Below are positions 3,528-24,068 of a stretch of DNA of 32,786 nucleotides, one piece after another. The DNA comes from Clostridia bacterium (lineage in GTDB: Bacteria; Bacillota; Sulfobacillia; RBS10-35; Bu92), in the NCBI GenBank assembly GCA_019683875.1, contig JADGHN010000003.1, positions 1 through 32,786 of the forward strand, written 5' to 3'. The notes beneath the pieces are model-generated. The model saw nothing but the letters and a program-made list of their open reading frames with translations. It was not told the origin of the DNA and ran no database searches. The translations under genes and the position numbers were made by a program. Each line of letters begins with the position of its first letter. The stretch's first letter is position 1.

Positions 3528-4412
3528 GTGACGACGACTCACGCCACGGTCGACCTCGACCGTTTGCGCGACCGCGCGCGCGAGCTGCGCCGGACGCTCC
3601 TGCAGATGATCGCCGAAGCCGGCTCGGGCCACCCGGGCGGGTCTCTCTCGGCGGCCGACATCGTTGCGGCCCTGTACTTTCACGAGCTTCGTCACGATCC
3701 TCGGCGTCCCGATTGGCCCGACCGGGACCGCTTCATCCTCAGCAAGGGCCACGCCGTGCCGGTGCTGTACGCGGCGCTGGCGGAATGCGGCTACTTCGAC
3801 CGGAACCTCCTGCACACGCTGCGCCGGCTTGGGAGCCCCCTGCAGGGCCACCCCTCCGTGCGCGACCTGCCCGCGGTGGAGGCCTCGACCGGCTCGCTCG
3901 GCCAGGGACTGTCCATCGGCGTCGGCGAGGCGCTCGCCGGCCGGCTGGACCGGCGGGACTACCGCGTCTTCGTCATGCTGGGCGACGGCGAGTGCGACGA
4001 GGGCCAGGTCTGGGAGGCGGCGATGAGCGCCGCGCACTACGGGCTGTCCAACCTCGTCGCCATCGTCGATGCGAACGGCTTCCAGCTTGACGGGGCGACG
4101 GGCGAGATCATGGACCTCGGGCGGCTTGAGGAGAAGTGGGCCGCGTTCGGCTGGGACGCGGTCACCATCGACGGCCACGACATGGCGCAAGTCGTGCAGG
4201 CGCTCGCGGTGCCGCGCCCCGACTGGTCCGGCGCGTCCGCGCCCGGGCGGCCGGCCTCCGCGCGCCGGCCGCGCGCGATCATCGCCCGCACCGTCAAGGG
4301 CAAGGGCGTGTCCTTCATGGAGAACAACAACGAATTCCACGGCCGCGCGCCGACGGCCGAGGAACTGGCACGGGCACTGGCCGAGCTCGATGAGGGAGGT
4401 GCCGCTCGATGA
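3528..4412 (+). CDS. Transketolase, N-terminal subunit (thiamine diphosphate binding)
   Basis: The first half of a split transketolase, which transfers two-carbon ketol units in the non-oxidative pentose phosphate pathway. The 294-residue protein carries SGHPGG with H35, SKGHA, STGSLGQGLSIGVG and the ThDP/Mg motif GDGECDEGQ (from residue 152) through N183 in NGFQLDG. The GTG start at 3528 follows GGGAAGGTGG with good spacing. The stop overlaps the start of the second subunit by four bases (ATGA), so the two halves should be made in equal amounts. Split transketolases are common in archaea, Thermotogae and many Bacillota. Annotation as a 1-deoxyxylulose-5-phosphate synthase half is less likely because DXS is a single long chain. 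Confidence 0.93.
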   Translation: MTTTHATVDLDRLRDRARELRRTLLQMIAEAGSGHPGGSLSAADIVAALYFHELRHDPRRPDWPDRDRFILSKGHAVPVLYAALAECGYFDRNLLHTLRRLGSPLQGHPSVRDLPAVEASTGSLGQGLSIGVGEALAGRLDRRDYRVFVMLGDGECDEGQVWEAAMSAAHYGLSNLVAIVDANGFQLDGATGEIMDLGRLEEKWAAFGWDAVTIDGHDMAQVVQALAVPRPDWSGASAPGRPASARRPRAIIARTVKGKGVSFMENNNEFHGRAPTAEELARALAELDEGGAAR

Positions 4413-5359
4413 CGCGTCCGCTGGGACTCGCCACGCGTGAAGCGTACGGCCTCGCCCTGGCGGAGCTGGGACGCGAGCGCCCGGAGATCGTCGTCCTCGA
4501 CGGCGACCTCTCCAAGTCGACGATGACCAAGTACTTCGCCAAGGAGTTCCCCGACCGCTTCTTCAACATGGGCATCGCGGAGGCGAACATGGTCGGCGTG
4601 GCGGCGGGCCTCGCCCGTTGCGGCAAGATCCCGTTCGTCTCCAGCTTCGCGGCCTTCCTCATGTGCAAGGGCTTCGACCAGATGCGCGTCTCCGTGGCGT
4701 ACTCGGAGCTGAACGTGAAGTTCGTCGGCAGCCACGGCGGCATCAGCATCGGGGAGGACGGCGTGTCGCAGCAGAGCGTCGAGGACGTGGCGCTGGCGCG
4801 GGCGCTGCCCGGCTTCGCCGTCTTCGTGCCGGCCGACGAGCACGCCACCCGCGCCGTGGTGCGCGCGGCCGCGGACCATCCGGGGCCGTGCTACGTGCGC
4901 GTGGGGCGGCCCAAGGCGCCCGTCGTCTACCCGGACGGGTGCGAGTTCCGCGTGGGCCGCGCCATCCGGCTGCGTGACGGCGGCGACATGACGATCGTCG
5001 CCAACGGGTTGATGGTGGCGGCCGCGCTGGACGCGGCCGAGGCCCTCGCCCGCGAGGGCGTCGAGGCGCGCGTCCTGGACATGGCATCCGTGAAGCCCCT
5101 CGACGAGGACGCCCTTGAGGCGGCGGCGCGGGAGACGGGCGCCATCGTCGTGGCGGAGGAGCACCTGCTCGCAGGAGGGTTGGGCAGCGCCGTCGCGATG
5201 AGCGTTGCGAGCCGCCACCCGGTGCCGATGGGCTTCGTCGGCCTGGACGACACGTACGCCGAGTCCGGCAAACCGGAGGAGCTGCTGGCCAAGTACGGGC
5301 TCACCGCGGAACGCATCGCGGAGGAGGCGCGGCGCGTGCTCGCCCGCGCGCGTCGCTGA
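4409..5359 (+). CDS. Transketolase, C-terminal subunit (pyrimidine-binding half)
   Basis: A partner of the preceding gene, supplying the pyrimidine-binding and C-terminal domains. The 316-residue protein starts at ATG 4409 after GGGAGGTG. It shows LDGDLSKST, FNMGIAEANMVGVAAGLA with the catalytic Glu58 that activates ThDP, GSHGGISIGEDGVSQQ and a C-terminal transketolase domain with VVAEEHLLAGGLGSAVA. The length matches stand-alone C-terminal subunits. An intrinsic terminator follows eight bases after the stop, so this is the last gene of the transcription unit. Confidence 0.93.
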   Translation: MTRPLGLATREAYGLALAELGRERPEIVVLDGDLSKSTMTKYFAKEFPDRFFNMGIAEANMVGVAAGLARCGKIPFVSSFAAFLMCKGFDQMRVSVAYSELNVKFVGSHGGISIGEDGVSQQSVEDVALARALPGFAVFVPADEHATRAVVRAAADHPGPCYVRVGRPKAPVVYPDGCEFRVGRAIRLRDGGDMTIVANGLMVAAALDAAEALAREGVEARVLDMASVKPLDEDALEAAARETGAIVVAEEHLLAGGLGSAVAMSVASRHPVPMGFVGLDDTYAESGKPEELLAKYGLTAERIAEEARRVLARARR

Positions 5360-7257: not shown

Positions 7258-8670
7258 TCACGGGGCGCGCCGCGCCTGGAGCGCCCGGTACCCCCACGCC
7301 AGCCGGCCGAGGGCCAGGGCGTGGGTCAGCACCGCAAGAAGGACCAGGGCCACCCACGGGACGGCCAGCAGCCCGCCGACGAAAACGACGAAGCAGCGGC
7401 CGTCGCGGTTCGCCGGGATCCAGCGCAGCCAGGCGGGGTCGTCCGCCAGCGGGTCGTAGCGGCGGCTCGCCTCCACCTGCCCGAGCAGGCGCATGCGGTC
7501 CTTCATCAGCGCGGACAGCGGCATGCCGGCCAGCGCCGCCAGCCCGGCCCACCACACGGCGGCCGGCGCCGCGCTCGCAAGACCCCAGCCCGGCGCGTCC
7601 GGCGCGAGCGCGCCGGCCATCAGGCCGGCGACGAGCACGGCGTCCGCGTACCGGTCGAGCACGGTGTCGAGAAAGGCGCCCGCCGGGCGCTGCGCCAACC
7701 GGAGCCGCGCGAGTTCCCCGTCGACGCCGTCGATGACGGACGACAGCTGCACGAGCACGCCGCCCAGCGCGGGGTGTCCCGCCGCGAAGGCTGCCGCCGC
7801 GAGGCCCATCAGCACGAAGGCGATGGCCGTCACGGCGTCAGGCGTCACCCGCGTGCCTCCAAGCGCGCGCGTGACGAGGCGGGACAGCGGGCGGTTCAAG
7901 TGCCGGGCGACGGGGCCGTCGCCGCCGGACGCGGTGGCGTGCGCCAGTAGGCGGGCGGCCGCGGCCCGCGCCGCCGGCGCGTCGTCCACGTCCACCCACC
8001 ACCCGCGCTCCAGCGGCACCGCGAGGAGGCGCCCTCGCTCCGCGAGCCGCGCGGCCGCCGCCGTCAGCGTGACCTCTCCTCCCCCGGATTCCCGGTCGAT
8101 CGCCGCGAGCGCGTCGAGGAGACCGTCCGAACCGACGAACACGCCGGCGTCCACGCCGTCGAACGCCTCCAGGCCCTTGCCGATGGCCTCGATGCGGTCG
8201 CCTCGCCGCCGCACGCGCGTCGCCTCGTCGAGATCGAAGACGTCCTCGAGTCGCCCGTCCACGAGGAGGAGAGCGGCTCCCTCGCCGAGCTCGGCCCACC
8301 GGGCGCGAGCCGCCTCCGCGGCGCAGCGCGCCACCTCCGGGTCCATGACGTGATCCGCCATGACGAGCAAAAAGGGTTCGCCGCGGAGGAGGGGCGCGGC
8401 CGCGAGAAGACTCGCGCCGTTGCCGCGCCGCCACCCGTCCGCGCGAACCCACCGCGCCCCCTCGCCGAGCGCGCGCTCAAGCCGTGACCGGACCTGGTCG
8501 GACGCGTACCCGGTGACGATGACGAGTTCCTCGCACCCGGCGGACCGCAGGCATCGCGCGGCCCGCTCCAGCAACGTCAGGCCGAAGAGCGGGTACAGGG
8601 GCTTGGGCATGCCGCCGGCGACCGGCCGAAGGCGGCTCCCTTCGCCGGCGGCGAGGATCGCGCCCTTCAT
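7258..8670 (-). CDS. Bifunctional inositol-1-phosphate cytidylyltransferase / CDP-inositol:inositol-1-phosphate transferase (DIPP synthase)
   Basis: A 470-residue fusion. Residues 1 to about 245 form a nucleotidyltransferase: LAAGEGSRLRP (6-16), MPKPLYP (21-27) and MADH (104-107), predicted to make CDP-inositol from CTP and inositol-1-phosphate. Residues from about 255 form a membrane CDP-alcohol phosphotransferase with N-terminal LNRPLSRLVTRAL and the exact motif D317-G-x2-A321-R322-x8-G331-x3-D335-x3-D339, followed by several hydrophobic helices. This fusion is the known IPCT-DIPPS enzyme that makes phosphorylated di-myo-inositol-phosphate in Archaeoglobus, Thermotogales and Rubrobacter. 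The adjacent upstream inositol-1-phosphate synthase supplies the substrate. The start at 8670 is 14 bases from that gene's stop. No dedicated DIPP phosphatase is in the window. A phospholipid role cannot be excluded, but normal phosphatidylinositol synthases lack the cytidylyltransferase half. Confidence 0.88.
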   Translation of the reverse strand: MKGAILAAGEGSRLRPVAGGMPKPLYPLFGLTLLERAARCLRSAGCEELVIVTGYASDQVRSRLERALGEGARWVRADGWRRGNGASLLAAAPLLRGEPFLLVMADHVMDPEVARCAAEAARARWAELGEGAALLLVDGRLEDVFDLDEATRVRRRGDRIEAIGKGLEAFDGVDAGVFVGSDGLLDALAAIDRESGGGEVTLTAAAARLAERGRLLAVPLERGWWVDVDDAPAARAAAARLLAHATASGGDGPVARHLNRPLSRLVTRALGGTRVTPDAVTAIAFVLMGLAAAAFAAGHPALGGVLVQLSSVIDGVDGELARLRLAQRPAGAFLDTVLDRYADAVLVAGLMAGALAPDAPGWGLASAAPAAVWWAGLAALAGMPLSALMKDRMRLLGQVEASRRYDPLADDPAWLRWIPANRDGRCFVVFVGGLLAVPWVALVLLAVLTHALALGRLAWGYRALQARRAP

Positions 8671-8684
8671 CGCGCCACGCCCCG

Positions 8685-9824
8685 TCAGTCGGCGCTCGCG
8701 TGAGCGACGAGGTCCTCGGCCGGCGCGTCGTCCGTCGCCTCGCCGCGGATGAACGCCTCCATGAGCCGGCGCGCCTCATAGTCCGGGTACTGGACGGGCG
8801 GCGACTTCATGAGGTACGCCGAGACGGGCTTGATCGGGCCGGCGAGCCCGCGGTCCAGGGCGAGCTTCGCGCAACGCACGGCGTCGATCATGACGCCCGC
8901 GCTGTTCGGCGAGTCCATGACGGACAGCCGCAGCTCCAGCTCGATGGGCTGGTCGCCGAAACCGCGGCCCTCCATGCGGATCATGCACACCTTGTTGTCC
9001 TCGAGCCACGGGACGTAGTCGCTGGGCCCGATGTGGATGCGCTCGTCCGCCAACGGCGTTTCGAGCTGGGACTGTACCGACTGCGTCTTGGACTTCTTCT
9101 TGCTCTTCAGCCGCGAGTGGTTGAGCATGTTGAGGAAGTCGGTGTTGCCGCCGAAGTTGAGCTGGTACGTGCGCTCGAGGCGGACGCCGCGCTCCTCGAA
9201 AAGCCGCGTCAGCACGCGGTGCACGATCGTGGCGCCGACCTGGCTCTTGATGTCGTCGCCGATCACCGGCAGGCCCTTCCGGCGGAAGCGCTCGCCCCAC
9301 TGCGGCGACGACGCGATGAACACCGGGATGGCGTTCACGAACGCCACGCCCGCCTCCAGAGCCGCTTCGGCATAGGCGCGCGTCGCCTGCTCCGAGCCGA
9401 CGGGCAGGTAGTTCACCAGCACGTCGGCGCGCGTCTCCTTCAGCACGCGGGCGACGTCCACGGGAGAGGCGTCCGCCACCTTGAAGGTGCGGTCCTCCGG
9501 GTAGTCGCGCATGTGGTCGCTGAAGCCGTCGAGCACGGGCCCCATCTGAACGGTGACGGGGATCTCAGGAAGCTCCTGGAACACGGGCGTGCAGTTCGGC
9601 CGCGCCATCAGCGCCTCGTGCAGCGGACGGCCGACCTTGCGCGCGTCGATGTCGAAGGCCGCGACAAATTCGATGTCCTGCGGCCGGTAGCCGCCGATCG
9701 ACGCGTGCATCAGCCCGGACAGTTCGTCCGCGCGCTTTGGATCCGAGTAGTAGTGGACGCCTTGCACAAGCGAACTGGCACAGTTGCCGACACCGGCCAG
9801 GGCCACACGAACCTTGCCTGGCAT
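8685..9824 (-). CDS. ino1: Inositol-3-phosphate (myo-inositol-1-phosphate) synthase
   Basis: Converts glucose-6-phosphate to L-myo-inositol-1-phosphate with bound NAD. The 379-residue protein is of the short archaeal/actinobacterial type. It has the Rossmann motif [13 protein letters not shown] (11-23), [64 protein letters not shown] with the Lys-rich [12 protein letters not shown] segment, and [20 protein letters not shown] 9824 follows GGGAGGTGG with eight-base spacing; the longer open frame to 10040 covers the promoter and is not coding. It is the first gene of a two-gene operon with the IPCT-DIPPS fusion, which directs its product to DIP rather than only to phosphatidylinositol or mycothiol. 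Confidence 0.95.
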
Positions 9825-9895: not shown

Positions 9896-9996
9896 ATCCG
9901 GACGGCGTCCCCGGTATTGAGATTGAAGCGAGCATCCAGACAACGGCTTTCAGATATGGATATGCGGCTCGAGCCGACAGGGCAACCTGCACGTTC

Positions 9997-10025
9997 AGTA
10001 TAGCAAACCCAGGAGAAAATGGCAA
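9997..10025 (-). promoter_or_regulatory. Sigma-A promoter of the inositol/DIP operon
   Basis: On the minus strand TTGCCA (plus 10025-10020) and TATACT (plus 10002-9997) are separated by exactly 17 bases. Each hexamer matches consensus at five of six positions, and TGC precedes the -10, making it an extended -10. Transcription should start near 9990, giving a leader of about 165 bases before ATG 9824. This is the best promoter in the window. Confidence 0.8.
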
Positions 10026-10116: not shown

Positions 10117-10153
10117 AAAAAAAATGCGCGCGGCCCCGGGATGGGGCCGCGCG
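10117..10153 (-). terminator. Rho-independent terminator of the korAB unit
   Basis: On the minus strand an 11-bp perfect GC stem (plus 10143-10153 with 10127-10137, five-base loop) is followed by CATTTTTTTT. It lies 23 bases after the korB stop and insulates the inositol promoter from read-through. Confidence 0.93.
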
Positions 10154-16976: not shown

Positions 16977-18053
16977 TCACTGCGGCGTCCGAATCCGCTT
17001 GAGGCGGAACGTGCGCTCGATCCGCTCCTCCACAAGCCGGTCGGCGGCCTCGCTCGTGGGGATGCCGAGCTCCGCCGAGCGCTGGAAGATCGCGAGAAGG
17101 ATGTCGTAGATCGCCCTCGTCTTGTGCCGCACGCGCTCCGGATTGGGCCCGCGCGGGTGAAGCTCGTCGGCGACCTGGATCAGGCCGCCGGCGTTGATGA
17201 TGTAGTCCGGCGCGTAGAGAATGCCGCGCCGGTGCAGCTCGCGCCCGTGGCGCTCCTCCGCCAGCTGGTTGTTCGCGGAGCCGGCGACGGCGCGGCACCT
17301 GAGGCGCGGGATCGTCTCGTCGTTGAGGACGCCGCCCAGCGCGCAGGGAGCGAAGATATCGCACGGCACGGCGAAGATCGCGTCCGGGTCGACGACCTCC
17401 GCCCCCGTCTCCGCCGCGACCCGCTCCACGGCCTCCCCGTCGACGTCCGTGACGACGAGCCGGGCACCCGCCTCCGCCAGTTCCCTCGCGAGCTTGGCGC
17501 CCACCTTGCCCACGCCCTGGATGGCCACAGTCCGGCCGGCAAGATCGTCCGCGCCCCAGAGATGGCGCGCCACGGCGCGCATGCCCATGTACACGCCGTA
17601 CGCCGTCGGCACGGAGCTGTCGCCGGAGCCGCCGTACTCCTGCGGTAGGCCCACGATGTACCGGCTCTCCCGCGCGCTGTGCACGAAGTCTTCCGGGTAG
17701 GTGCCGACGTCCGTGCCCGTGTAGAGCCGGCCGCGCAGCCCCTCGACAAAGCGCCCGAGCGCGCGCATCAGCTCGGGCGTCTTGTCGCGGTGCGGATCGC
17801 CGATCACCACGCACTTGGCACCGCCGAAGTCGACGTCGACGGCGGTCGACTTGTAGGTCATGCCCCGCGAGAGGCGCAGCGCGTCCGTGAGCGCCGCCTC
17901 CTCGTTGGGGTACGGCAGCATGCGGGTCCCGCCCAGCCCGGGCCCGCGCGTCGTGTCGTGGAACGCGATGATCGCCTTCAGGCCGGTGTCGGGGTCGTGA
18001 CAAAAGACGACCTGCTCGTGACCCATCTCCTCCATGCGTTCAAAGACGCCCAT
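16977..18053 (-). CDS. Leucine (branched-chain amino acid) dehydrogenase
   Basis: NAD-dependent reversible deamination of Leu, Val and Ile to 2-oxoacids. The 358-residue protein aligns without gaps at the N-terminus with Bacillus leucine dehydrogenases: GLGGTRMLPY (39-48), K68 in MTYKSTAV and catalytic K80 in FGGAKCVVIGDP. The NAD domain has TVAIQGVGKVGAKLA, followed by CALGGVLNDETIP, AVAGSANNQLAE and YAPDYIINAGGLI. The motif just before K80 reads GGAK where GGGK is usual. The start at 18053 has GGAGGGTG inside the end of the upstream aldehyde dehydrogenase gene, three bases away. Phenylalanine or valine dehydrogenase activity cannot be excluded by sequence alone. It converges on the 2-oxoacid dehydrogenase operon. 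Confidence 0.9.
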   Translation of the reverse strand: MGVFERMEEMGHEQVVFCHDPDTGLKAIIAFHDTTRGPGLGGTRMLPYPNEEAALTDALRLSRGMTYKSTAVDVDFGGAKCVVIGDPHRDKTPELMRALGRFVEGLRGRLYTGTDVGTYPEDFVHSARESRYIVGLPQEYGGSGDSSVPTAYGVYMGMRAVARHLWGADDLAGRTVAIQGVGKVGAKLARELAEAGARLVVTDVDGEAVERVAAETGAEVVDPDAIFAVPCDIFAPCALGGVLNDETIPRLRCRAVAGSANNQLAEERHGRELHRRGILYAPDYIINAGGLIQVADELHPRGPNPERVRHKTRAIYDILLAIFQRSAELGIPTSEAADRLVEERIERTFRLKRIRTPQ

Positions 18054-18056
18054 GCC

Positions 18057-19523
18057 TCACACCCTCCAGGGTTGGACCGGCCGGCTGCTGGTGAGCACCG
18101 TGACGCTCTTCACTTCCGTGTAGAGCTCCAGCGCTTCGAGGCCGAGCTCGCGGCCGAAGCCGGACTGCTTGTAGCCCCCGAACGCCTGGCCCGGGAAGGC
18201 GGTGAACGGGTGGTTGACGGTGACGACGCCCGCGCGGAGCGCGGCCGCCACCCGGTGCGCGCGTGCGGCGTCCTGCGTCCAGACGGTCGCGGCCAGGCCG
18301 TAGCGCGTGCGGTTGGCCTGGGCGATGGCGTCGGCCTCGTCCTCGAACGGGATGATCGCCACGACGGGGCCGAAGATCTCCTCCTGGGCGACCGTCATGT
18401 CGTTCGTGACGTCCGCGAGCACGGTGGGCCGGTAGAAGTGGCCGCGGGCCAGCGCCGGATCCTCCGGCCGCCCGCCGCCGGTCGCCAGGCGGGCGCCCTC
18501 CTCCACGCCTTTCCGCACGTACCCGTCGACCCGCTTCCAGTGGGCCTCGCTGATCAGCGCGCCGATGTGCGTCTCCGGGTTCATCGGGTCCCCGACCTTC
18601 AGCTTCGCGGCCTTTTCCGTGAAGGCGGCGACGAACGCGTCGTAGCGGGACTTCTCGACGAAAATGCGGGAGCGCGCCTCGCAGGATTCGCCGCCGGACG
18701 TGAAGATCGCCCACAGCGAGCCCTGTACGGCGGCGTCGAAGTCGGCGTCGGCAAAGACGATGTTCGGCGACTTGCCGCCGAGCTCCAGGGACACCCGCTT
18801 GATGCCGTCCGCGGCGAGCTTCATGATCTCCCGGCCGGTGGCCGTCTCGCCGGTGAAGGCGACCTTGTCGACGCCGGGGTGCGCGGCGAGGTAGGCGCCG
18901 ATCGTCGACCCCGGACCCGTGACGATGTTCACCACGCCGTCGGGGATGCCGGCTTCCTGGATCAGCTCGCCGAGGCGTAGGGCGGTGAGCGGCGTGGCGC
19001 TCGCGGGTTTCAACACGACGGTGCAGCCGGCGGCGAGCGCCGGCGCGAGCTTCCAGGCGGTCATCATCAGCGGGTAGTTCCACGGCACGATCTGCGCGCA
19101 GACCCCGACGGGCTCCCGCAGCGTGTAGTGCAGGAGGTACGGCGCGGCCGGCGTGGTGTGGCCGAAGATCTTGTCCGCCGCGCCAGCGAAGTACTCGAAG
19201 TCCTCGATCGCCTGGTTGACCTCTCCCTGCACCCCGGTGATCGCCTTGCCATCGTTCTGCACTTCGAGCTTGACGAGCTCGTCGAAGTGGTCGCGCATCA
19301 GCTGGGCGAGCTTCCACAGCGCCCGCGCGCGGGCCGACGGCCGCGCGCTCCACTTGCCCTCGAACGCCGCGCGCGCCGCGGCGACGGCGCGGTCGACGTC
19401 CTCCTGCGTGGCCTGCGCGACATGGGCGATCGTCTCGCCGGTGGCCGGGTTGAAGGTGGGAAACGTCTCGCCGCCCGAGCCCTCCGCCCACTGCCCGCCG
19501 ATCCACATCTTCTTGACGTCCAT
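18057..19523 (-). CDS. NAD(P)-dependent aldehyde dehydrogenase
   Basis: Oxidises an aldehyde to its acid. The 488-residue chain is a complete class-I type aldehyde dehydrogenase. WIGGQWAEG opens the fold; PWNYPLMMTAWKLAPALAAGCTVVLKPA (in two parts), FTGETATG, the general base E247 in SLELGGKSPN and the nucleophile C281 in GGESCEAR are intact, and EEIFGPVV and NHPFTAFPGQAFGGYKQSGFGRELG (in two parts) close it. The start at 19523 is the only sensible Met, with a G-rich site before it. Operon position between leucine dehydrogenase and thiolase suggests an aldehyde from amino-acid or acyl-CoA catabolism. The exact substrate is unknown. Confidence 0.93.
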   Translation of the reverse strand: MDVKKMWIGGQWAEGSGGETFPTFNPATGETIAHVAQATQEDVDRAVAAARAAFEGKWSARPSARARALWKLAQLMRDHFDELVKLEVQNDGKAITGVQGEVNQAIEDFEYFAGAADKIFGHTTPAAPYLLHYTLREPVGVCAQIVPWNYPLMMTAWKLAPALAAGCTVVLKPASATPLTALRLGELIQEAGIPDGVVNIVTGPGSTIGAYLAAHPGVDKVAFTGETATGREIMKLAADGIKRVSLELGGKSPNIVFADADFDAAVQGSLWAIFTSGGESCEARSRIFVEKSRYDAFVAAFTEKAAKLKVGDPMNPETHIGALISEAHWKRVDGYVRKGVEEGARLATGGGRPEDPALARGHFYRPTVLADVTNDMTVAQEEIFGPVVAIIPFEDEADAIAQANRTRYGLAATVWTQDAARAHRVAAALRAGVVTVNHPFTAFPGQAFGGYKQSGFGRELGLEALELYTEVKSVTVLTSSRPVQPWRV

Positions 19524-19538
19524 CCTGCGACCCCCTTG

Positions 19539-20752
<1,214 letters not shown>

Positions 20753-20756
<4 letters not shown>

Positions 20757-21538
20757 CGCCGTTCGAACCTCGGCGCCCGCTTCTCGACGAACGCCGCCAT
20801 GCCCTCGTGATGGTCGCGGCTGCGGCCGGCGGCCTCCTGAAGCTGCGCCTCGTACTCCAGGGCTTCCTCAAGCGTGTGCGTCGCGCCGTACTCCATCGCC
20901 CGCTTGATGAGGCCGATGCTGTAGGGTCCGCGCGCGAGCTGCGCGGCCCACGCGCGCGCCTGCTCCATGAGTTCCTCCTGCGGCACGACGCGGTGGAAGA
21001 CGCCGAGCTGCAGCGCCTCCTCCGCCGTGATGCGCCGGCCCGTGAGGGCCCACTCCATGGCGCGGGAGAAGCCGACCATGCGCGTCAGGAAGTACGTCGC
21101 GCCCGAGTCCGGCACGAGGCCGACGTTCACGAACGCCTCGACCAGCGACGCCTGCTCCGAGGCGATGCGCAGGTCCGCGGCCAGCGCCAGGCTGGCGCCG
21201 GCGCCTGCGGCCACGCCGTTGACGGCGGCCAGCACCGGCTTGGGCAGCGACTTCAGCGCGAGAATGATCGGGTTGTACCGCCGGCGAAGGACGTCGCCCA
21301 GGTTGGCCCTGCCCTGCTCCACGGCTTCCAGCTGGCCCTTCAGGTCCTCCCCGGCGCAGAAGGCGCGTCCCGCGCCGGTGAGGAGCACCGCCCCGACCGA
21401 TTCGTCCTTGCCCGCCTGGCGGATGCGGTCCAGAAGCGCGAAGCCGAGCTCGTCGTTGACGGCGTTCAGGACCTCCGGCCGGTTCAAGGTGATGACGGCG
21501 ACGCCGTCTTCCACCTGGTAGAGGACCGTGTCCGACAT
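20753..21538 (-). CDS. Enoyl-CoA hydratase/isomerase, PaaG-like
   Basis: A crotonase-fold enzyme of 261 residues acting on an acyl-CoA thioester. The oxyanion hole is formed by CAGEDL (61-66) and [20 protein letters not shown]. It lacks the second hydratase glutamate and instead has D144 in [17 protein letters not shown], together with [22 protein letters not shown]. This pattern matches PaaG, the 1,2-epoxyphenylacetyl-CoA (oxepin-CoA forming) isomerase, and related delta3-delta2 isomerases. The start at 21538 follows AAGGGGAAC. The stop overlaps the thiolase start, so the two should be co-translated. A general unsaturated-acyl isomerase role is an equal alternative. Confidence 0.87.
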
Positions 21539-21551
21539 ACCGTTCCCCTTT

Positions 21552-22352
21552 CTACCGGCCGCGGAACTGCGGCGGCCGTTTTTCCATGAAGGCGCGCATG
21601 CCCTCTTTCTGGTCTTCCGTCGCGAAGAGGAGGTAGAAGTTGCGGCGTTCGTACGCGAGGCCCTCGGTGAGCGTCGTCTCGAACGCGCGGTTGACGGCGT
21701 CCTTTCCCAGGCGGACGGCCAGCGGGGGCCGCTCGGCGATGCGCTGCGCCAGCCGCAGCGCCTCGTCGAGCAGCACCTCCGGAGCCACCACGCGGCTGAC
21801 GAGGCCGAGTTCGAGCGCGCGGCGCGCGGGGATCGGGTCGCCGGTGAGGATCATCTCCATGGCCGCCGACTTGCCCACGGCGCGCGTAAGGCGCTGCGTG
21901 CCGCCGGCGCCCGGGATCACGCCGATGGCGATTTCCGGCTGGCCGAAGGTGGCCGTCTCCGCGGCGATGATGATGTCGCACATCATCGCCAGCTCGCAGC
22001 CGCCTCCCAGCGCGAACCCGTTGACGGCCGCGATGATCGGCTTGTGGATGAGGCGGATGGCGTCCCACGTGGCGAAGCGGTCCTCGAGCTCCATGTCCAC
22101 GACGGTCCGCTCGGCCATCTCCTTGATGTCGGCGCCGGCCGCGAACGCCCGTCCGTTGCCGGTCAGCACGATGGCGCGGACGGCGTCGTCCTGGTCGAGG
22201 CGGCGGAGCGCGTCCAGCAGCTCCTCCATGAGCTGCGCGTTCAGGGCGTTCAGCGCCTGCGGCCGGTTCAGCCGCACGAGGGCGACGGCGCCGCGGTCTT
22301 CAACCTGGATCGTCTGGTACGTGCGATGCCAAGCCCGTTCGGGCTCGCTCAT
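21552..22352 (-). CDS. Enoyl-CoA hydratase, PaaF/crotonase type
   Basis: The 266-residue hydratase adds water to trans-2-enoyl-CoA. Both catalytic glutamates are present with the usual 20-residue spacing: E120 in ALGGGCELAMMCD and E140 in FGQPEIAIGVIPGAGGTQRL. The oxyanion segment AAGADIKEM is at 71-79. ATG 22352 follows GGAGGG. It lies 13 bases upstream of the PaaG-like gene, giving a hydratase-isomerase-thiolase set in one operon. Confidence 0.93.
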   Translation of the reverse strand: MSEPERAWHRTYQTIQVEDRGAVALVRLNRPQALNALNAQLMEELLDALRRLDQDDAVRAIVLTGNGRAFAAGADIKEMAERTVVDMELEDRFATWDAIRLIHKPIIAAVNGFALGGGCELAMMCDIIIAAETATFGQPEIAIGVIPGAGGTQRLTRAVGKSAAMEMILTGDPIPARRALELGLVSRVVAPEVLLDEALRLAQRIAERPPLAVRLGKDAVNRAFETTLTEGLAYERRNFYLLFATEDQKEGMRAFMEKRPPQFRGR

Positions 22353-22368
22353 GTTGAGTCCCTCCAGC

Positions 22369-22674
22369 CTACTCGTCCACTTCGGCGATCGACATGGAAA
22401 CGATGCCCTTGGCGAACGACATGAGGTTCTTCGCGGCTTCCCGCGACGGTTCCGAGGCCATGGAGGCGTTCAAGGCGTCCATCGAGTCGAAGTACAGCTC
22501 GGCCATGCGGTAGTACGGAGGGTCTCCGCCGCCCGGGACGCCGGTGAAACGGGAGAGCTCCATGCGGCGCAGGCCGGGCATCTGCCGCGCCAACGGCAGG
22601 TGCGTTTCCCGGTAGAGGCGCTCGAATTCTTCGGGGTCCTCGGGCCGCTTGAACATCACGACGAGCTTGACCAC
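22369..22674 (-). CDS. EthD-domain protein
   Basis: A 101-residue dimeric alpha/beta-barrel-type protein. VKLVVMFKRPEDPEEFERLYRETHLPLARQMPGL (in two parts), then YYRMAELYFDSMDALNASMASEPSREAAKN fit the EthD/DUF1330-like ferredoxin fold, which is often found next to catabolic oxidoreductases with unclear function. The start is taken as GTG 22674, after GGCGGAG; the frame is open well upstream but that part has no domain-like sequence and overlaps the methyltransferase gene. It is the first gene of the catabolic operon. A role in substrate handling is only an inference. Confidence 0.83.
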   Translation of the reverse strand: MVKLVVMFKRPEDPEEFERLYRETHLPLARQMPGLRRMELSRFTGVPGGGDPPYYRMAELYFDSMDALNASMASEPSREAAKNLMSFAKGIVSMSIAEVDE

Positions 22675-22841
22675 GCGTGGCTCCGCCTTTCCGCTGGGAA
22701 CTGGGAATGGCACGCGAACGGCACCTGTCCGCGCCCATGAGCCGGTTGCAGGCACCGCGGCAACTGACTTCGACACCGGCGGCGTTCGACCTTCTCGCTT
22801 CTGGGCGGGGCAGGCGGTGGACGGCGCGCGGGAGCTGCGCC

Positions 22842-24068
22842 TTAGGCGTCCCAGCGCGGCCCGAAGGGCAGGCGTCGAACCGCAGGCGGGTACAACTGAA
22901 CGTGGTAGACGTGCTCCGCGCGTGTGGAGGTCCACGAGAAGAGCGGCGGCCGGCCGGCCGCGACAGGCTCGGACGCTGCGTCTTCGCCGGCCGGGCGCAC
23001 GGTCACGCGGAAACGCTCCAGCGGCGGCCGGCCCGCGCGCACCCAGCGTTCGATGGCGTCCTCGAGCTCCGCGACCGGCGGGCGCGGGCCCCACACGCGG
23101 ATGCCGCCGTCGCGGCCGAGGGCGACGCCGCTCGCCGCATCGCGGACAACCCCCGCCAGTTCCGGCGGGTGGGCGAAAAACGACCTCTCGCCGAACGCCA
23201 GCGCGAGCCAGAACCTGAGGCCGCGCCAACCCACGGCATCGGGCCGCCCGCGAAGCGCGACGCAACAGCGGTCGGCAAACGCGGCCACGGCGCGCTCCCA
23301 GGCGGCGCGCTGGCCGGCGGCGTCCAGGGCCGGCGCGGCGACTCGCGTTCCGGCGCGCGCTTCGACCGCGCCTTCCGCGCGCAGTCCGGGCGGCGCCGGC
23401 GCCGGCGCGGCGTCGCCGTCCAGCCAGGCGACGGCCTGCCATCCGAACGGCCGGCGCTCCAGCACGGCGACGAGCGACTGCAGCGGCGATGCCAGCGCGA
23501 GCGGCAGGGCCAGGCGACCGCGCTGCGGCACCCGCGCGTCCCATGAGGCGGGGAAGTCGGCCACCGCGCCCTGCACGAGGATGCGGTCGACGTCCGGTCC
23601 CGAGGGGAGCAGGTGCCACGCGTCGTCGTCCAGGACGCGGACGTCCGAGCCGATCGACGCCAACCGGCGCCGCACCCACTCGCGCGCTGCGGCGTCGGGC
23701 TCCAGCACGTACACCGTTCCGGCCGGGCCGACGAGCGTTTCCAGCAGGGCCGCGGCGTACCCGGAACCGGCGCCGACGACCAAGACCGCCTGGCCCGGGG
23801 CGACTTCCAGCGTCTCGATCACGCGAGCCAGTTGCGACGGGCGCGACGCCGTCGCAAGGCGCGCGCCGGCCGCGTCGCGGATGGTCAGCGGCACGTCGCG
23901 ATAGGCATACGGCGCGAGAGAGGCCGGCAGGAAGACGTGCCTTGGCACGTACGCGAACGCGCGCGCCACCGGCTGGCTGCGCAGCGCGCCGCTCGCGATC
24001 ATGCGGCGGACGAGGGCGTACCGCTCGCGCCGGTACGCCCGCAGGGCGTCATGCGGGACCGTGGCCAT
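22842..24068 (-). CDS. Protein-L-isoaspartate O-methyltransferase-like protein with long C-terminal extension
   Basis: Residues 1 to about 210 form a SAM-dependent methyltransferase of the PCMT family: VPRHVFLP (41-48), AYRDVPLTI (55-63) and SAM motif I VLVVGAGSGYAAALLE (95-110). The usual TISQP substrate signature is changed to TASRPSQLARVIE, and the post-I acidic residue is in VLEPDA. The remaining 190 residues have no family that I recognise and contain WRGLRFWLALAFGERSFFAHPPE and LFSWTSTRAEHVYHVQLYPP. The total of 408 is about twice that of a canonical Pcm. ATG 24068 follows GGGAGGGGG. It could repair isoaspartyl damage, or modify a dedicated peptide or protein as PCMT relatives in RiPP clusters do, but no precursor gene is visible. 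Confidence 0.85.
   Translation of the reverse strand: MATVPHDALRAYRRERYALVRRMIASGALRSQPVARAFAYVPRHVFLPASLAPYAYRDVPLTIRDAAGARLATASRPSQLARVIETLEVAPGQAVLVVGAGSGYAAALLETLVGPAGTVYVLEPDAAAREWVRRRLASIGSDVRVLDDDAWHLLPSGPDVDRILVQGAVADFPASWDARVPQRGRLALPLALASPLQSLVAVLERRPFGWQAVAWLDGDAAPAPAPPGLRAEGAVEARAGTRVAAPALDAAGQRAAWERAVAAFADRCCVALRGRPDAVGWRGLRFWLALAFGERSFFAHPPELAGVVRDAASGVALGRDGGIRVWGPRPPVAELEDAIERWVRAGRPPLERFRVTVRPAGEDAASEPVAAGRPPLFSWTSTRAEHVYHVQLYPPAVRRLPFGPRWDA

Follow-up and report, generated by a model that had tools for sequence, protein, structure and literature searches.

Putative di-myo-inositol phosphate synthesis genes in a probable thermophile related to Thermaerobacter

Di-myo-inositol phosphate (DIP), a protective solute known chiefly from hyperthermophiles, has been described as nearly exclusive to organisms that grow at high temperature (PMC8397731, PMC3505630). 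Deep-sea ammonia-oxidising archaea have been named as the first case of its genes outside organisms that grow above 55 C (PMC8397731). The window analyzed here, a stretch of 32,786 nt, is one entire contig of a 1.87-Mb MAG (95.5% complete) and carries a gene for myo-inositol-1-phosphate synthase (INO1) followed by a gene for a cytidylyltransferase fused to a CDP-alcohol phosphotransferase. This locus raises the question of what the two proteins make. We consider it likely, with a probability of about 0.8, that the two genes are transcribed together as one unit and encode the core of DIP synthesis, and that DIP acts as a protective solute.

Under this reading, INO1 would convert glucose-6-phosphate into L-myo-inositol-1-phosphate, and the N-terminal domain of the fusion would use CTP to turn inositol-1-phosphate into CDP-inositol. 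The membrane domain would transfer the inositol-phosphate moiety onto another molecule of inositol-1-phosphate, with phosphorylated DIP (DIPP) and CMP as the products. The terminal phosphate of DIPP would be removed by a phosphatase encoded elsewhere, most likely an inositol-monophosphatase/HisN-like enzyme on contig C25, and DIP would protect a thermophile of the Thermaerobacter group as a solute that responds to heat and salt.

The INO1-fusion gene pair

INO1 (379 aa) is located at 8685..9824 on the minus strand and the fusion gene (470 aa) at 7258..8670 on the same strand, and the gap from the INO1 stop to the fusion start is exactly 14 nt (8671..8684, minus strand), the spacing given in a preliminary description of this DNA. 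The upstream protein matches Inos-1-P_synth (PF01658) at 7.4e-37 and is the only PF01658 protein encoded in the genome. The fusion has Pfam matches to NTP_transf_3/NTP_transferase at residues 1-230 and to CDP-OH_P_transf at residues 275-353, as well as a full-length NCBIfam DIPPS match at 1.3e-61. The sequence has a GC content of 71% and overlapping open reading frames are numerous; chance frames are ruled out by the INO1 Pfam match and the full-length DIPPS match. The INO1 ATG at 9824 is preceded by GGAGGTGG, a strong ribosome-binding site, which makes the longer INO1 frame from 10040 in a mechanical list of open reading frames unneeded. The gene order, including the upstream 2-oxoacid oxidoreductase gene, is kept in the same-genus MAG Bu92, and an assembly artefact is thus excluded.

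Two other features of the window were observed in passing. Transketolase is encoded by two adjacent genes, one for the N-terminal and one for the C-terminal half, at 3528-5359 on the plus strand. A run of genes at 16977-23679 on the minus strand, comprising Glu/Leu/Phe/Val-dehydrogenase-like, aldehyde dehydrogenase, thiolase, two enoyl-CoA hydratase and EthD-domain genes, looks like a catabolic operon.

Among 399 genomes sampled across the phylum Bacillota, the fusion is present in 28. INO1 lies directly upstream of it in all 27 distinct loci examined, in 26 as an open reading frame and in one (G122) as a tblastn match. When the fusion was used as a single-protein query, the matches were limited to two close relatives and to two loci of Sphingomonas, and a full-length fusion was not found in the plasmid collection searched. 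The fixed neighborhood bears on whether INO1 might serve another inositol use (mycothiol or PI) with the fusion beside it incidentally. The best fit of INO1 is indeed to the actinobacterial mycothiol-type model TIGR03450, but its 493 bits fall short of the cut-off of 638. The best MshC match in the host genome likewise scores 311 bits, where the model requires 485, and it is probably a cysteinyl-tRNA synthetase, because all 14 control genomes match too. With both scores below their cut-offs and INO1 adjoining the fusion in every locus examined, we rejected a mycothiol use of INO1, and such a separate role is highly improbable.

Identity of the fusion protein

The identity of the fusion is indicated by Pfam, NCBIfam, a PDB profile search, and invariant catalytic and acceptor-site residues. 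In the PDB search, for which the profile was built from 23 family members, the solved structure that best matches the family along its whole length is that of the Archaeoglobus fulgidus IPCT-DIPPS (4mnd, E = 5e-85). The preliminary description had recognized an IPCT-DIPPS fusion, and this result bears it out. With the same profile, AF2299 (4o6m) comes second at 8e-53, via the membrane domain alone, and the PIP synthases are far weaker than 4mnd (9e-20). The N-terminal IPCT domain (about residues 1-242; 7945..8670, minus strand) was delimited by alignment with 2xme and by invariant columns. It is nearest to 2xme, the A. fulgidus IPCT (5.9e-42), followed by 4jd0 (2.2e-31), which we take to be the T. 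maritima IPCT, whereas MurU (8hhd, 2.8e-21) and other sugar nucleotidyltransferases are weaker. The IPCT motifs LAAGEGSRLR, GNGAS, MADHV, EATRV, IGKGL, VDAGVF, and WWVDVDD are found, and the invariant columns are present. The C-terminal CDP-alcohol phosphotransferase domain (about residues 251-470; 7261..7920, minus strand) was delimited by alignment and invariant residues. An AlphaFold model of the fusion, built with three sequences, had a mean pLDDT of 56, too low for a fold search.

The best NCBIfam match is the Thermococcales DIPPS model NF041135, which covers residues 1-451 with 209 bits against a cut-off of 580. This cut-off was set for Thermococcales, and none of 14 control genomes passes it, though Thermotoga maritima gives a match; having missed the curated cut-off, the fusion sits outside this Thermococcales-restricted subfamily. 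It shares with the IPCT-DIPPS proteins of A. fulgidus (4mnd, 2xme) and Thermococcales (NF041135) the domain order, a full-length alignment, the catalytic and IPCT motifs, and the acceptor-site arginines. It differs from them in extra membrane-domain loop residues, in its bacterial high-GC lineage, and in having INO1 fixed directly upstream.

When the membrane domain was searched alone, AF2299 was the closest solved structure (2e-50), nearer than AfDIPPS (3e-34), although the N-terminal cytidylyltransferase-like domain of AF2299 fails to align with the IPCT domain of the fusion. A. fulgidus accumulates glycerophosphoinositol, and AF2299 has been shown to accommodate CDP-glycerol. Both points would fit a fusion whose product, in place of or in addition to DIP, is another inositol phosphodiester solute, such as glycerophospho-myo-inositol or a mixed solute. 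Against this, the lower AfDIPPS score can be explained by its long branch (2.1 changes per column). Furthermore, donor and acceptor are both likely to be inositol-derived, because the motifs of the IPCT domain, which would supply CDP-inositol, are conserved and INO1 is always adjacent. We regard such a product as unlikely.

Placement of the fusion among phospholipid synthases had been named beforehand as an outcome that would refute the DIP reading, and this placement did not emerge. In the membrane-domain tree, which was built without Rubrobacter, Aquifex, or Thermococcus sequences, the window fusion groups with the fusions of the Thermaerobacter class, and the PIP synthases lie outside on a separate branch with 100/100 support. 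AfDIPPS and AF2299 pair inside the ingroup, an unsure position given long branches.

Catalytic residues and the acceptor

The membrane domain carries DGVDGELAR-x8-GAFLDTVLDR and NRDGR. The D-G-x2-A-R-x8-G-x3-D-x3-D motif reported earlier is complete (D314-G-V-D317-G318-E-L-A321-R322-x8-G331-x3-D335-x3-D339), and its eight residues are invariant in 23 of 23 sequences. Equally invariant are R340, R425, and R456, which by sequence homology align with MtPIPS R94, R155, and R195. These three arginines of MtPIPS have been assigned to binding the phosphate of the inositol-phosphate acceptor, and R155 and R195 correspond to R153 and R191 in Renibacterium numbering (PMC4634129, PMC6506517). The mycobacterial and Renibacterium PIP synthases thus share the CDP-alcohol phosphotransferase motif and the inositol-phosphate arginines with the fusion; they differ in using a CDP-diacylglycerol donor and in having no IPCT domain. 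Judged from these residues, the acceptor is most likely an inositol phosphate and the donor is most likely CDP-inositol made by the same chain.

The same residues bear on a lipid product, in which CDP-inositol from the N-terminal domain would be transferred to diacylglycerol. The fusion enzyme is a membrane protein, and an NTP transferase and a CDP-alcohol phosphotransferase next to MIPS have been proposed for a lipid route in the alternative cluster of Bacteroides vulgatus/Prevotella. However, invariant arginines for an acceptor phosphate would be superfluous with a neutral lipid acceptor. Eukaryotic lipid-acceptor enzymes of this family, CEPT1 among them, have three to four extra C-terminal helices that are absent in the fusion, whose membrane domain ends where DIPPS ends, and CEPT1, the best lipid-acceptor match to the membrane domain, reaches only E = 0.07. 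In addition, a HAD hydrolase family was not seen among the shared neighbors. Because the CDP-alcohol phosphotransferase motif and the inositol-phosphate arginines are invariant in the 23 sequences, we favor inositol phosphate as the acceptor, and synthesis of an inositol phospholipid appears very unlikely.

A candidate two-gene transcription unit

A sigma-70 type promoter (TTGCCA-17-TATACT, with TG before the -10 element) was found upstream of INO1 at 9997..10025 on the minus strand, with one occurrence against 0.1 expected in shuffled sequences, and comparable sites are present at -181 in Bu92 and at -203 in ZC4RG18. The upstream 2-oxoacid:acceptor oxidoreductase genes end in an intrinsic terminator at 10127..10153 (minus strand), in which a T run comes after 11 G-C pairs. 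The terminator pattern is loose (one found against 1.4 expected), and the argument rests on its position and stem strength. With a promoter of its own that recurs in similar form in Bu92 and ZC4RG18, and with a terminator behind the upstream genes, the INO1-DIPPS pair makes most sense as a separate two-gene unit, whose leader would measure about 170 nt.

Within the leader, a 36-nt element at 9909..9944 (minus strand) differs at one position from its counterpart in Bu92, around which the leader has otherwise diverged. In the host and in Bu92 it occurs once per genome, only upstream of INO1, and it is possibly a cis-regulatory element. A search of the leader against Rfam gave matches far below the gathering scores, and the leader fold was unremarkable (z = -1.8).

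Host lineage and growth temperature

The closest named relatives of the host are the Bacillota bacterium MAGs Bu92 (same genus) and ZC4RG18. Fusion-bearing relatives include Thermaerobacter marianensis, which has an optimum of 75 C, requires sea salts, and has a genome of 2,844,696 bp, and Thermacetogenium phaeum, with an optimum of 58 C and a genome of 2,939,057 bp; four genomes of one genus in the same class as the host, that of T. marianensis among them, measure 2.8-3.0 Mb. The 16S GC content is 63.7-64.7% in genomes of the genus Thermaerobacter; Bu92, represented by a partial 16S, has 65.1%. A 16S gene was sought in the host genome and not found. The two thermophilic relatives and the 16S GC of Bu92 and Thermaerobacter lend indirect support to the earlier suggestion that the host, an uncultured relative of Thermaerobacter, is thermophilic. 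The fusion genes alone are no proof of thermophily, since DIPPS-related genes are reported in non-thermophilic ammonia-oxidising archaea (PMC8397731). Two temperature gauges were set aside: IVYWREL values from the open reading frames of about 20 kb placed T. marianensis near 20 C, and the GC content of SRP RNA tracks genome GC too closely.

Among known DIP producers, Rubrobacter xylanophilus is a thermophilic bacterium of a different phylum; at 60 C it holds 33 mM DIP in ultrafiltrate (PMC3505630). A study of hyperthermophilic compost places Thermaerobacter among the most active taxa and lists trehalose, ectoine, and other compounds, and its main text does not mention an inositol solute (PMC12625702). 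A search of the open literature, with most subscription papers outside its reach, found no paper linking di-myo-inositol with Thermaerobacter. The locus appears to be a new lineage for an already known pathway, and DIP genes in relatives of Thermaerobacter suggest that cultivable aerobic thermophiles make a solute that has been overlooked.

The DIPP phosphatase step

The preliminary description had stated that a DIPP phosphatase gene does not adjoin the pair, which is correct for the host genome, but relatives do carry an adjacent gene for a PHP (HisJ-family) phosphatase-like protein. Outside the Thermaerobacter group, 20 loci could be judged from their contigs. Two of them, G031 and G111 of a single genus, have no such neighbor, and in the other 18 the gene lies beside the pair. 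Examples are L076:10588-11520, L070:11749-12645, L072:7926-8825, and L057:10006-10974, with 14 further loci. In 7 genomes the gene lies upstream of the pair and reads in the same direction, in 11 it lies downstream and is convergent, and it is the sole widely shared flanking gene besides INO1. The protein, about 290 aa long, has conserved histidines and aspartates and belongs to the HisJ subfamily, scoring 142 bits with TIGR01856 (cut-off 90). The PHP tree places the pair-adjacent genes in two separate subclades, each corresponding to one of the arrangements. Most of these genomes have a second PHP copy, which lies in a large clade distinct from both subclades. Some genomes without a detected fusion (G400, G011) also contain members of these PHP groups.

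None of nine loci in the Thermaerobacter group has an adjacent PHP gene, and a search of the host genome at 1e-15 with the PHP profile, for which 15 of the loci had served as the training set, gave no match. We tentatively suggest from this gene neighborhood, at somewhat less than even odds, that the PHP/HisJ-family protein beside INO1-DIPPS is a dedicated DIPP phosphatase, that its two subclades became linked to the pair separately, and that the Thermaerobacter group uses a different, unlinked phosphatase. The conserved PHP neighbor is, to our knowledge, the first genome-context candidate for this step, and as a candidate for a reaction usually ascribed to a general inositol monophosphatase it is the part of most specialist interest. 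A published reconstruction assigns the step to inositol monophosphatase (PMC8397731).

A phosphatase elsewhere in the genome had been proposed as a check, and the search returned one PF00459 gene in the host genome, on contig C25. Its product scores similarly with the HisN (158 bits) and inositol monophosphatase (150 bits) models and stays below both cut-offs. Since a PHP histidinol phosphatase was not detected in the host genome, the enzyme may take part in histidine synthesis, in DIP synthesis, or in both pathways.

Related genes outside the pair

The only other PF01066 match in the host genome (L056:1304-1600, G000 contig C112) has a histidine in place of the fourth aspartate of the motif, and the PF01066 search did not find an ordinary PgsA. 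A DIPPS relative in another genome (L019, G119 C71:3689-5032) contains an in-frame TAA within the match, which reflects either a match that extends beyond the gene end, decay of the copy, or a mistake in the assembly. In Sphingomonas parva and S. deserti (L036:5009-6708; L037:5015-6708), an IPCT-like gene, 38-40% identical to the IPCT domain of the window, overlaps a separate CDP-alcohol phosphotransferase gene head to head, and this gene pair is possibly a CDP-inositol route to inositol lipids.
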